The notes beneath the pieces are model-generated. The model was given only the letters and a program-made list of their open reading frames with translations, was not told the origin of the DNA and made no database searches. Below are positions 53,104-59,716 of a stretch of DNA of 64,000 bases, in pieces; position 1 is the stretch's first letter, and each line of letters begins with the position of its first letter. Source of the stretch: Vineibacter terrae (GTDB lineage Bacteria; Pseudomonadota; Alphaproteobacteria; Reyranellales; Reyranellaceae); NCBI RefSeq assembly GCF_008039615.1, contig NZ_VDUZ01000042.1, positions 1 through 64,000 of the forward strand. The letters are read 5' to 3'. A program made the position numbers and the translations under genes.

Positions 53104-53172
53104 TGCCGTACTGCCGCGCGCCGGCCACAAACGGTGTCCACCTCTATCGCCCCGACCCCGGAGGCTCCCGCC

Positions 53173-53634
53173 ATGCGCTGTGTCCTCGCCGCCGCCCTCG
53201 CCCTGACCACGCTCGCCGGCGCCGCGCGCGCCGAGGATATCGGCAGCGCCAGCTACCGCTTCAAATGGCTGGGGCCCAACGACCGCATCAAGGTCGAGGT
53301 GTTCGACGACCCGGCCGTGCCCGGCGTCGCCTGCTACCTGTCGCGGGCCGAGACCGGCGGCGTGAAGGGCGCCCTGGGCCTCGCCGAGGACCCGGGCGAG
53401 GCGTCGATCGCCTGCCGGCAGGTCGGGCCGATCGACCTGGAGAAGGTGAAGAAGCTGAGGAGCGGCCAGGAGGTCTTCGAGCGCGGCGCCTCTTTGGTGT
53501 GGAAGAAGACCCAGGTGGTGCGCTTCTATGATGCCAAGCGCAACGTGCTGGTCTACCTCACCTACACCGACCGGGTGATCGAGGGCAGCCCGCGCAACTC
53601 GATCAGCGTCGTGCCGCTGGGCCGGCCGCAGTGA
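53173..53634 (+). CDS. creA: CreA family periplasmic protein
   Basis: 153 residues from the ATG at 53173, with GGAGG 8 bases upstream. Signal peptide to GAARAED. The mature part has VFDDPAVPGVACYLSRAETG, ALGLAEDPGEASIACRQVGP, VVRFYDAKRNVLVYLTYTD and GSPRNSISVVPLG, all CreA landmarks. The two cysteines may form a disulfide. Function unknown. The next gene starts 40 bases on. Confidence 0.92.
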   Translation: MRCVLAAALALTTLAGAARAEDIGSASYRFKWLGPNDRIKVEVFDDPAVPGVACYLSRAETGGVKGALGLAEDPGEASIACRQVGPIDLEKVKKLRSGQEVFERGASLVWKKTQVVRFYDAKRNVLVYLTYTDRVIEGSPRNSISVVPLGRPQ

Positions 53635-53674
53635 ACCGGACGAACCAATGAACAGGCGCAAGGGGTGACATTCG

Positions 53675-54430
53675 ATGGGACTGGTCTGGATCGCCGTCGC
53701 GGCCGGCGCCGTGCTGCTGCTGGTCGTGCTCCTGGTGCTGCGCAGCCGGCGCAACGAACGCGTCATCGACCTCTCCGGGCCGTCGGACACGACCGGCGCG
53801 GAGCCGGCGCGGATCGGGCGCAATGAGGCCGCCCCCGACACCAGCAAGGCGGAGTCGCCGGGCGAGATCCTCGAGCTCAGGGGACTCGACGACGCCGAGT
53901 GCGGCCTCGCCGACTGGCTTTTGCAGCAGGCCAACCAGAGCCTGGGGATCGACGTCTCCGGCGACCGCACGGCGATCACCCGCCTGGCCGACGCGGCCGT
54001 GGCGGCGTCCGCCGACCTCAAGGCGAGCGGCCGGGCCCGCATCGACCTGCCCTACATCGCCGCCGACGCCAGCGGCCCCAAGCACTTCCAGCGCGAGGTG
54101 ACGCGCGCGGAGGCCGAGATCGGCATGATCGACCACGAGCTGCTCCTGGTCGACGAGCTGCTGGCCTGGCGCGGGCGCGACAGCCGCACCGCCGCGCTGG
54201 GCGCCTGGCTGGAAACCGAGGCCGAGGAGGAAGGCGACGGCGACGGCTCGCTCGACGCCCTTTCCACCCAGCGCATGGCCGACGCGGCCGAGCAGGCGAT
54301 GGCCGAGATCGCCCGCTCGGGCAGCGCCAGCGTCGACCTGCCCGGGCTGGTCAGGCAGGGCAAGCCGCCGTTCCATTTCCGCCGCAGCTTCGACCGCGCC
54401 GCGCTGGACGAGATGATCGGCGAGGCCTGA
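53675..54430 (+). CDS. Membrane-anchored protein with two DnaK nucleotide-binding-lobe (IIB) segments
   Basis: 251 residues. One membrane segment (about 4-23), a linker to about 65, then two related blocks. Block 1 (about 78-158) contains GIDVSGDRTAITRLADAAVA, then RIDLPYIAADASGPKHFQRE and VTRAEAEIGMI. It aligns along its length with the DnaK segment that includes QRLKEAAEKAKIELS, NLPYITADATGPKH and TRAKLESLV, i.e. subdomain IIB of the ATPase domain. Block 2 (about 175-250; QRMADAAEQAMAEI, SVDLPGL, HFRRSFDRAALDEMI) is a degenerate copy. ATP-binding loops and the substrate-binding domain are absent. It ends tail-to-tail with the next gene. Role unknown. Confidence 0.72.
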   Translation: MGLVWIAVAAGAVLLLVVLLVLRSRRNERVIDLSGPSDTTGAEPARIGRNEAAPDTSKAESPGEILELRGLDDAECGLADWLLQQANQSLGIDVSGDRTAITRLADAAVAASADLKASGRARIDLPYIAADASGPKHFQREVTRAEAEIGMIDHELLLVDELLAWRGRDSRTAALGAWLETEAEEEGDGDGSLDALSTQRMADAAEQAMAEIARSGSASVDLPGLVRQGKPPFHFRRSFDRAALDEMIGEA

Positions 54431-55180
54431 TCAGGGCGCACGCGGCGCGGCATAGAGGAACGTCCCCAGCAGCACCCAGCGCCGGGCGGCGCCGGCGCGG
54501 CCCGGCCTGGCCGCCAGCGGCGTCACGTAGTGCCAGAACGGCAGGCGGTAGGCGCTGACCGTGGCCGGCGCCGCCACCGAAACCATCTCGGTGAAATGCC
54601 CGGCGCGGGCATAGACCAGCCATTGATGGGCGACCGACGGCGCCGCCAGCGAGACGTGGACGTCGACATAGCCGGCGCGGGCGCGCCGGTTGCGCGGGTG
54701 GTGGTCGTTGTGCGGGCCGGCATAGTCGCCGGGGCCGTAGCACAGCACCTGCCGGCCCCAGCCCTCGGCCAGCTTGCGGCCGGCCAGCGCCGCGGCGAAG
54801 GCCCGGAAGCTCTCCGACCGCAGCATCGCCGCCAGCCCGATCCGCCTGGCGATGCGCACGCCCGGCTCCTGCGGCGAGTCGAAGTACACCGTCGATGCCC
54901 GCGCCGCCTTGGGCAGCATCTCGGCATAGTCGTCCGTCATCTCCCAGATCGTCTCGGGCGGGATCGGCCGGTCGATGCGCTCCAGCGCCGCCAGCAGGTG
55001 GCGGTCCAGCAGCGCCCGCAGGCGCCGCGCCTGGCGTGCATCGATCAGGTCCGCGGCCGATTCGAAGCGCCGGCGCGGATCGGCCAGCGCCCCGCACAGC
55101 GGATGCGTGCCGGCCAGCACGCGGCGGCCCTGGCGCGAGAGGATGTCCTCGAACTCGGCCGGGAAGCGATCAGCCGGCAT
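54431..55180 (-). CDS. Probable 2-oxoglutarate/Fe(II)-dependent oxygenase-like protein
   Basis: 249 residues from the ATG at 55180. The second half looks like a double-stranded beta-helix oxygenase: CYGPGDYAGPHNDHHPRN contains an H-x-D iron site, YVDVHVSLAAP is a core strand, and LPFWHYVTPL and RRWVLLGTF could give the distal His and the 2-oxoglutarate-binding Arg. The N-terminal half (about 1-120) is helical and unassigned. It follows the DUF4170 gene by 11 bases. Substrate unknown. Confidence 0.6.
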   Translation of the reverse strand: MPADRFPAEFEDILSRQGRRVLAGTHPLCGALADPRRRFESAADLIDARQARRLRALLDRHLLAALERIDRPIPPETIWEMTDDYAEMLPKAARASTVYFDSPQEPGVRIARRIGLAAMLRSESFRAFAAALAGRKLAEGWGRQVLCYGPGDYAGPHNDHHPRNRRARAGYVDVHVSLAAPSVAHQWLVYARAGHFTEMVSVAAPATVSAYRLPFWHYVTPLAARPGRAGAARRWVLLGTFLYAAPRAP

Positions 55181-55191
55181 GGACGGGGGCC

Positions 55192-55599
55192 TCACGCGCC
55201 GGTGGTCTGCTCGATCTCGATGCGGTAGCGGCACATGGCGTCGTCGACCGTGGCCCAGGCGCGGCCGGCCCAGGCCTTCTGCGCCTGCTCCTGGGTCGCG
55301 AAGGGCCCGAGGCGCTCCAGGGTCTTGCCCGGCGCCGGCACGGTGAAGGTGGCGTCGGCGTATTCGCCGCCCACCACCCAGTAGCGCGTCGCGGGCGCTG
55401 CGCCGGTATCGGACTCCTCGGTCACGATCGAATAGCGGCTGTGCGCGTCGTCGACCGTGGCCCAGGCGCGTCCCGACCATGCCTTCAGCGCCTCGTCGTA
55501 GGTGCCGAAGGGGCCGAGCCGCATTTCCGCCTTGCCGGGCGCGAAGCTGGTGAAGCTCGTGTCGTTGTATTCGCCGCCGACCACCCAAAAGCGCTTCAT
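55192..55599 (-). CDS. Tandem DUF4170 protein
   Basis: 135 residues formed by two DUF4170 copies of about 62 residues. Copy 1 starts FWVVGGEYNDTSFTSFAPGK and copy 2 starts YWVVGGEYADATFTVPAPGK. Each has LGPF, a KAW-GRAWATVDDA block and an RY-I strand. The domain is typically single and cytoplasmic in alphaproteobacteria, with no known function. The gene lies just upstream of the oxygenase-like gene. Confidence 0.82.
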   Translation of the reverse strand: MKRFWVVGGEYNDTSFTSFAPGKAEMRLGPFGTYDEALKAWSGRAWATVDDAHSRYSIVTEESDTGAAPATRYWVVGGEYADATFTVPAPGKTLERLGPFATQEQAQKAWAGRAWATVDDAMCRYRIEIEQTTGA

Positions 55600-59024: not shown

Positions 59025-59339
59025 ATGCCCGAACCTGACCTGAGCCTGGTGCGCGAGTTCAAGCGGCGGGCCGAGGCAGCCCTGCCCGGCCGCATCGCCA
59101 AGGTCGTGCTCTACGGCTCGCGCGCCCGCAACGACGCACGGCCCGACTCGGACTGGGATGTGGCCGTTTTCGTTCATGGCAAGCCCGCCGCGCACGAGCA
59201 GGACGCCCTGTCCGACATTGGCTTCGACCTCCTGATGGAGGTCGGCGAGCACATCCACCCCATCGCCCTCGACACGGCGCGAGCCGAGGAGGACTCGTGG
59301 TTCATGGAGACGGTGCGGCGTGACGGTCGTGCCGCATGA
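59025..59339 (+). CDS. MNT-type minimal nucleotidyltransferase (antitoxin-like)
   Basis: 104 residues. KVVLYGSRARNDARPDSDWD carries the nucleotidyltransferase motif G-S-x-A-R-x(n)-S-D-x-D, and the third acidic residue is likely in HIHPIALD. No other domain. It overlaps the next gene, a HEPN protein, by four bases, the standard layout of MNT/HEPN toxin-antitoxin pairs in which MntA modifies HepT. Confidence 0.85.
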   Translation: MPEPDLSLVREFKRRAEAALPGRIAKVVLYGSRARNDARPDSDWDVAVFVHGKPAAHEQDALSDIGFDLLMEVGEHIHPIALDTARAEEDSWFMETVRRDGRAA

Positions 59340-59716
59340 CGCCGCAAGCTGCCCGTCGATTCGCCAAGGCTGAGCGCTTCCTCCAGCAGGCCGTCGCCCT
59401 CGACGCAGCGATCGCACCTGAGGGTCTGGTTCATCTTTGCTACTACGCGATGTTTCATGCGGCCGCAGCCGTGCTTCTCGACCGCCACGCCGCTGCGCCG
59501 AAGACGCACAGTGCGACCATCGCACAGTTCGGCGCGTTGGCGCGCACTGTTGGTTCTGATGCGGAACGTCTCGCGCATAACTTCAACCGTGCCGAGGACA
59601 GACGACTGATCGCCGACTACAGCGACCTTCCGCAGACAACGAGCGACGACGCCGCGAGCCTCCGCGACGACGCCATCGAGTTCGTCGGCTTCTGCCGGCA
59701 GCTGCTCGGCGCCTGA
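59336..59716 (+). CDS. HEPN domain protein, partner of the upstream nucleotidyltransferase
   Basis: 126 residues, all helical. HLCYYAMFHAAAAVLLDRH and EDRRLIADYSDL are typical of the HEPN/UPF0332 branch. The classical R-x4-6-H RNase motif is not evident, so it may be a non-nuclease HEPN or use another site; the Tyr of ADY is a possible target of nucleotidylation. Co-translated with the MNT gene (ATGA overlap). Confidence 0.82.
   Translation: MTPQAARRFAKAERFLQQAVALDAAIAPEGLVHLCYYAMFHAAAAVLLDRHAAAPKTHSATIAQFGALARTVGSDAERLAHNFNRAEDRRLIADYSDLPQTTSDDAASLRDDAIEFVGFCRQLLGA

Follow-up and report, generated by a model that had tools for sequence, protein, structure and literature searches.

In the window, i.e., the whole stretch of 64,000 nucleotides that was analysed, a gene with its ATG at 53675 and its stop codon ending at 54430 (ORF check) encodes a predicted inner-membrane protein, the soluble part of which is subdomain IIB of DnaK only, duplicated within the gene, as seen from sequence, structure prediction and synteny (Table 1). 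It is followed by a convergent gene, whose orthologue at locus L099 gave no Pfam match at E ≤ 0.01, and then by the gene for a tandem DUF4170 protein, which also gave a weak SPOR match below the cut-off; the literature on DUF4170 yielded one match, on fungal peptides. No chaperone genes were seen among the neighbours that were read. Further along the window, a nucleotidyltransferase gene (59025-59716, plus strand; Polbeta/NTP_transf_2) precedes a gene with a HEPN domain, and we take the two to be a likely MNT-HEPN toxin-antitoxin pair.

Table 1. Features of the gene and its surroundings (positions refer to the window unless another locus is named)
Feature	Position	Strand	Basis and remarks
creA	53134..53634	+	40 bp upstream of the family gene, same strand; Pfam CreA 1.5e-52
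Shine-Dalgarno-like AAGGGG	53660..53665	+	Read from sequence; 9 nt 5' of the ATG
Membrane-anchored tandem IIB gene	53675..54430	+	251 aa; ORF with Pfam, NCBIfam and PDB matches; 15 homologues in other loci
Single membrane helix, predicted	53681..53752	+	Residues 3-26; AlphaFold helix and sequence
IIB copy 1 (D1)	53882..54139	+	Residues 70-155; PDB sequence match, hhalign, AlphaFold, Foldseek
Hairpin tip LPYIAADASGPKH	54047..54085	+	Residues 125-137 = DnaK 283-295; Y127 = DnaK 285
IIB copy 2 (D2)	54182..54418	+	Residues 170-248; hhalign to D1 and AlphaFold; degenerate
Convergent conserved uncharacterised gene	54431..55180	-	Sister genomes lacking the family gene have it at this site too
Tandem DUF4170 protein	55192..55599	-	Two Pfam stretches; next but one to the family gene
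TPR protein	L091 9919-10659	-	Likewise encoded at the carrier loci of G001, G004, G007, G009 and G011

Subdomain IIB lies within the actin-like fold of Hsp70. The Pfam HSP70 profile matched the protein at 6.4e-11, above its curated cut-off, with the best stretch (residues 73-148) aligning to positions 225-299 of the 599 in the profile. NCBIfam DnaK models matched approximately residues 70-148 at 4.8e-24 and weaker, far below their whole-protein cut-offs. Searching the PDB with phmmer returned the isolated lobe II of DnaK (5oow, 5.6e-12) and the DnaK of 1dkg (residues 228-307, 1.3e-11), the latter over 80 residues without a gap, i.e., residues 70-149 correspond to E. coli DnaK 228-307 and residue n to DnaK n+158. 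The second copy was recognized through the first: hhalign of the copy-2 profile (12 rows) against copy 1 gave a probability of 99.3% (E 1.9e-19), and its direct comparison with DnaK was weak (74%, E 3.3e-6).

AlphaFold modeled a helix (residues 3-26), a low-confidence linker at about residues 31-50 and two domains (residues 73-155 and 170-248) in which helices and strands follow an identical order. The mean pLDDT was 88.6 for the whole model and, as block means, 90-98 for both domains. In the second domain the hairpin is shorter and G224 replaces the aromatic residue. All 40 Foldseek matches in the PDB at E ≤ 0.001 were Hsp70/DnaK, and a fold search of viral structure models gave no match at E ≤ 0.001. 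R23, R25, R26 and R29 lie at or just past the C-terminal end of the helix, which, by the positive-inside rule, suggests that the C-terminal part with its IIB domains would be located in the cytoplasm.

For the remainder of Hsp70, no match outside IIB was obtained with Pfam, PDB phmmer or NCBIfam. The actin-like nucleotide-binding domain (NBD) of four subdomains with its ATP-binding motifs is absent, only profile positions 225-299 of 599 being covered in a protein of 251 aa in total. The substrate-binding domain and the interdomain linker are likewise absent by profiles, and the AlphaFold model consists of the helix, the linker and two IIB folds. An earlier note on this DNA had likened residues 78-158 to DnaK IIB, taken residues 175-250 for a degenerate second copy, and stated that the rest of Hsp70 is missing and a membrane segment added. 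The first assignment was borne out by Pfam, the ungapped 1dkg match and AlphaFold, the second by hhalign (99.3% to copy 1) and AlphaFold, and the third by the profile searches and the AlphaFold helix 3-26, while the profile and fold comparison set beforehand as the refuting test favoured Hsp70 IIB throughout Pfam, phmmer, hhalign, AlphaFold and Foldseek. We regard it as virtually certain that the protein contains two copies of DnaK IIB with a predicted membrane anchor. Chance similarity was ruled out by the agreement between independent profiles, the predicted fold and the fold search. A frameshifted or truncated dnaK was also ruled out by the intact dnaK elsewhere in the genome, the position after creA in 9/9 carriers and the membrane helix of its own.

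To assess what the domain has lost, we compared the 16 first domains of the family with 29 DnaKs (32 found, 3 duplicates dropped). E267, K270 and S274, which we take to be the adenosine contacts of DnaK in IIB, are invariant in 29/29 DnaKs; in the family, a single one of 48 cells is kept, K270 and S274 being lost in all 16 first domains and E267 in 15. Since it lacks lobe I and IIA as well as the linker and the substrate domain, and has lost these adenosine contacts, the protein cannot work as an Hsp70. It is not itself an Hsp70 but a member of a new family made out of one subdomain of Hsp70.

The family comprises 16 proteins, the window's included, from 9 of the 75 genomes of the taxonomic family (E ≤ 1e-14). 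They occur in three genera, namely in 4/4 genomes of the window's genus (g1), 1/1 of g2 and 4/4 of g5, with 0/65 in g3 and 0/1 in g4; the order level adds one genome, a non-carrier (9/76). Named genomes contributing loci to the scan, all within g1, were Reyranella sp. CPCC 100927 (placed in Reyranellaceae by NCBI), Rhodospirillaceae bacterium SYSU D60007 and an alphaproteobacterial MAG. In g5 the genes form tandem clusters of two to four, with a single-domain form (S) first and two-domain forms (A, B and C) after it, the contig of G013 stopping after two cluster genes. The S form (151 to 157 aa) consists of a membrane helix and a single IIB domain, and its model, a single IIB domain, superimposes on the GrpE-bound DnaK 1dkg_D at 1.5 Å over 81 columns. 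Pfam HSP70 detects 8 of the 16 members (E ≤ 0.01); individual scans, in which the window's protein and an S form were recognized and an A form and the g2 protein were not, suggest that these eight are the g1 and S forms. Reading frames are open in 16/16 copies, including that of G007, where a TAG inside the search match reflects the match overrunning the gene's own stop.

At class level, 2 of 385 genomes carried a relative at E ≤ 1e-12, both of the window's genus, and the other 58 matching genomes matched within frames of at least 400 aa; at phylum level, 301 of 398 genomes matched at 1e-10 and, among the matches listed, all but the window's were frames of at least 538 aa, although a weaker short relative could have escaped both scans. 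A scan of viral contigs gave no relative. A phage or plasmid origin was considered and rejected: tblastn matched 5 phage and 64 plasmid records, all with less than 80% of the query covered. All 5 phage matches and the best 30 of the 64 plasmid ones fell on the IIB stretch (mostly residues 70-148 or 70-164), with the annotated ones being DnaK. Among the matches listed for Vineibacter, DUF4170 and Hsp70/DnaK in the literature (most subscription journals and bioRxiv being outside the scope), there was no protein of such design. A natural stand-alone IIB protein was not met in the database and literature searches performed here. The survey of taxonomic spread, which the earlier note had asked for, describes a conserved, syntenic and lineage-specific family with one- and two-domain forms.

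The genomic site is conserved. creA lies directly upstream of the family gene or cluster, on the same strand, in 9/9 carrier loci, and is also present in 7 of 8 non-carrier genomes searched. Five non-carrier creA loci (four of g3, one of g4) had mostly the same neighbours and no family member (best hmmsearch E 0.2); in the non-carrier loci, either the convergent gene or other genes come next after creA. The tandem DUF4170 gene was found above the cut-off in 8/9 carrier genomes versus 1/66 non-carriers, the ninth carrier (G013) having a contig that ends at the cluster. A TPR protein, probably membrane-bound, is encoded in the same stretch in 6/9 carriers and anywhere in the genome in 5/66 non-carriers; the window's genome gave no match to it at E ≤ 1e-15, and at L091 it has a weak PLDc_N-like start. 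As the carriers may form one clade (DnaK fork 84/82, weak), these co-occurrences do not count as independent events.

A tree of 57 IIB domains placed the 12 second copies in one group (97/96) and the 29 DnaKs in another (100/100). A single capture and a single internal duplication before the genera diverged would fit this topology; the tree was built on 94 columns with several long branches, leaving the finer branching order unsure. Strong divergence is seen in it for D2 and for several D1 copies. Pairwise dN/dS (Nei-Gojobori) was below 1 in all 19 pairs computed, with values of 0.14-0.28 for the S form (6 pairs), 0.21-0.52 for the A form (6 pairs) and 0.41 for the B form (1 pair). For g1, values of 0.42-0.81 (6 pairs) were obtained, which are probably upper estimates, because GC-rich codon bias lowers dS.

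We then considered which parts of the DnaK surface have been kept. The tip LPYIAADASGPKH belongs to the β-hairpin that in DnaK docks on GrpE, as described in the accessible text of PMC10825016, and the strands of this hairpin (276-302) are present in the structure models of both the window's protein and the S form. DnaK position 285 is Tyr or Phe in the first domains of g1 (4/4) and g2 (1/1) and in the S forms (4/4). It is aromatic in 0/7 first domains of the extra two-domain g5 copies (Ala or Gly instead) and in 0/12 second domains (Ala, Gly, Asn or Arg instead). Each of the 9 carrier genomes therefore has exactly one domain with an aromatic residue at 285 (9/28 domains). Position 264 carries an acidic residue in g1 and S (8/8) and in 5/7 extra g5 first domains, and Val in g2. 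Most g1 and most S proteins retain A288, D289, G292, P293, K294 and H295.

For a column test we took the 52 IIB columns conserved to at least 90% in DnaK, 11 of them in the hairpin tip (283-295) and 41 elsewhere. The tip was kept at 8/11 columns versus 12/41 elsewhere in g1 (p 0.012) and at 9/11 versus 16/41 in S (p 0.013), these limits having been picked after the alignment was seen. The differences were not significant in g2 (5/11 versus 11/41, p 0.20) or in the extra g5 copies (4/11 versus 8/41, p 0.21). Raising the column threshold to 97% for 283-295 gave p values of 0.062 (g1) and 0.018 (S), while the limits taken from the literature gave 0.064 (g1) and 0.054 (S) for 285-295, and 0.074 (g1) and 0.31 (S) for 276-302. 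At the level of sequence, preferential retention of the whole hairpin in g1 and S is thus only suggestive.

The earlier note had pointed out that this surface of DnaK contacts GrpE, which agrees with the accessible texts of PMC10825016 and PMC10803776. According to the former, the hairpin of E. coli DnaK (276-302) touches the GrpE-dimer helices in solution. GrpE binding is weakened by Y285R and by deleting 285-295 but not by Q260R in a IIB helix, and the helix around 260 is found to lie outside the interface; crystal and solution models of DnaK-GrpE disagree there on the role of the hairpin. In the latter, E236 and Y257 of M. tuberculosis DnaK contact GrpE, and the double substitution E236A and Y257A prevents this interaction and fails to sustain growth. 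By offset, these two residues are E. coli 264 and 285. With the helix around 260 outside the E. coli interface (accessible text of PMC10825016), the acidic residue at 264 may not matter in every species.

The genome of the window encodes one GrpE and one canonical DnaK. A second Hsp70-like protein of 630 aa (L112 2315-4207, plus strand) lacks the LPYI..D..GPKH hairpin motif, and a further HSP70 match, on contig C8, has an N-terminal sequence that looks to us like that of MreB. An alignment of GrpE from carriers and non-carriers, which covered 10 of 11 loci (L104 dropped by the length filter), led to no conclusion; among L105-L111 and L113-L115, GrpE reads EEAHKF or EEAYKF in carrier genera versus EKERKF in non-carriers, a difference that may be plain phylogeny.

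Given the kept residues at 264 and 285, the predicted cytoplasmic face and the lost ATP contacts, docking on GrpE would be expected. Our best reading, to which we incline tentatively, is that the family is a membrane-tethered DnaK mimic that may dock on GrpE; our confidence in this mechanism is limited because the retention of the whole hairpin is no more than suggestive. Furthermore, subdomains IA and IB of DnaK take part in GrpE binding as well, and the binding of IIB by itself may thus be weak.

A second possibility, nearly as likely as the GrpE mimic because most copies have lost the aromatic residue and yet persist, and because no chaperone gene was noted nearby, is that IIB serves at the membrane as a module for interaction or oligomerisation in general, with some partner other than GrpE (e.g., the tandem paralogues or a local partner), and that the hairpin is kept as part of the fold core or of the new contact. 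The extra g5 first domains and all second domains are without the aromatic residue, yet A and B have dN/dS below 1; the stop of S overlaps the start of A by 1-4 nt in 4/4 g5 genomes, as in jointly working proteins; the invariant Trp, Arg, Ala, Gly and Pro columns would resemble a fold core; and the neighbours are creA and the DUF4170 gene. However, the six hairpin residues from A288 to H295 listed above have been kept in most g1 and S proteins while other conserved columns changed.

Binding of the IIB domain to the middle domain of ClpB, whereby the disaggregase would be recruited or restrained at the membrane, is unlikely. The DnaK chain of the ClpB complex 6w6e is among the fold matches, and on DnaK the middle domain sits between IB and IIB (accessible text of PMC10803776), but this site thus also includes IB. 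Still less probable is an action on DnaK itself, in which the domain, homologous as it is to DnaK IIB, would inhibit or tether DnaK from the membrane by packing on lobe II or taking the place of DnaK's own IIB: within the DnaK-invariant E230-D231-F232-D233, F232 is replaced in 16/16 first domains (by Tyr in 3) and D233 in 16/16, with D231 kept in 4/16. A sensor of nucleotides or small molecules retaining part of the ATP pocket is equally hard to credit; lobe II of DnaK alone was crystallized with AMPPCP (5oow, by its entry title), but E267, K270 and S274 are kept in 1/48 cells, and IIA, which makes up the rest of lobe II, gave no match. A functionless, decaying remnant of a dnaK duplication, for which the strong divergence of D2 and several D1 copies and the high dN/dS of g1 (0.42-0.81) could speak, is very improbable and already disfavoured by the open frames (16/16), the constant site after creA (9/9), the repeated duplication in g5, the low dN/dS of S (0.14-0.28) and the predicted folding of both domains.

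If the protein is a membrane-tethered DnaK mimic, the one domain per carrier genome that keeps the aromatic residue and the exposed β-hairpin, with which DnaK touches the GrpE-dimer helices, would dock on the genome's one GrpE. The anchored domain would then hold GrpE, or compete for it, at the inner membrane, and nucleotide exchange on DnaK could thereby be lowered or localised, while the further degenerate copies may have moved to scaffold or regulatory contacts. One could go further and speculate about a genome-encoded GrpE decoy, i.e., a IIB subdomain excised, fixed in the membrane and duplicated into clusters, that sets the level of free GrpE and DnaK activity near the membrane, a proposal that we consider rather doubtful.

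The closest known system is IIB of the DnaK NBD itself, with which the family shares homology, the fold, the ungapped correspondence of residues 70-149 with DnaK 228-307 and the hairpin tip motif. In contrast to DnaK, it has only IIB, has lost the adenosine contacts, has gained a membrane anchor and is duplicated in one chain. That the part of the NBD holding IIB can fold alone is illustrated by the isolated lobe II of DnaK in 5oow, a construct known here from its title and matches. In 1xqs (by title), the core of HspBP1 is bound to an ATPase fragment of Hsp70, which provides a precedent for an exchange factor on a part of the NBD, although this exchange factor is eukaryotic and unrelated, and the structure is that of a construct. 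In the DnaK-GrpE complexes 1dkg, 4ani and 8gb3, the IIB hairpin lies on the GrpE dimer, the interface that is possibly mimicked, but other subdomains of DnaK contact GrpE as well, whereas the family offers IIB alone.

The membrane anchoring and tandem duplication show that IIB can evolve as a free module. As Pfam HSP70 missed 8/16 members, such domains would stay unannotated. If GrpE is bound, the family could be used directly as a reagent and would be a natural experiment on whether the hairpin of IIB is by itself enough to recognize GrpE, and the decoy, if true, would be a case of an Hsp70 machine regulated by an excised piece of itself.
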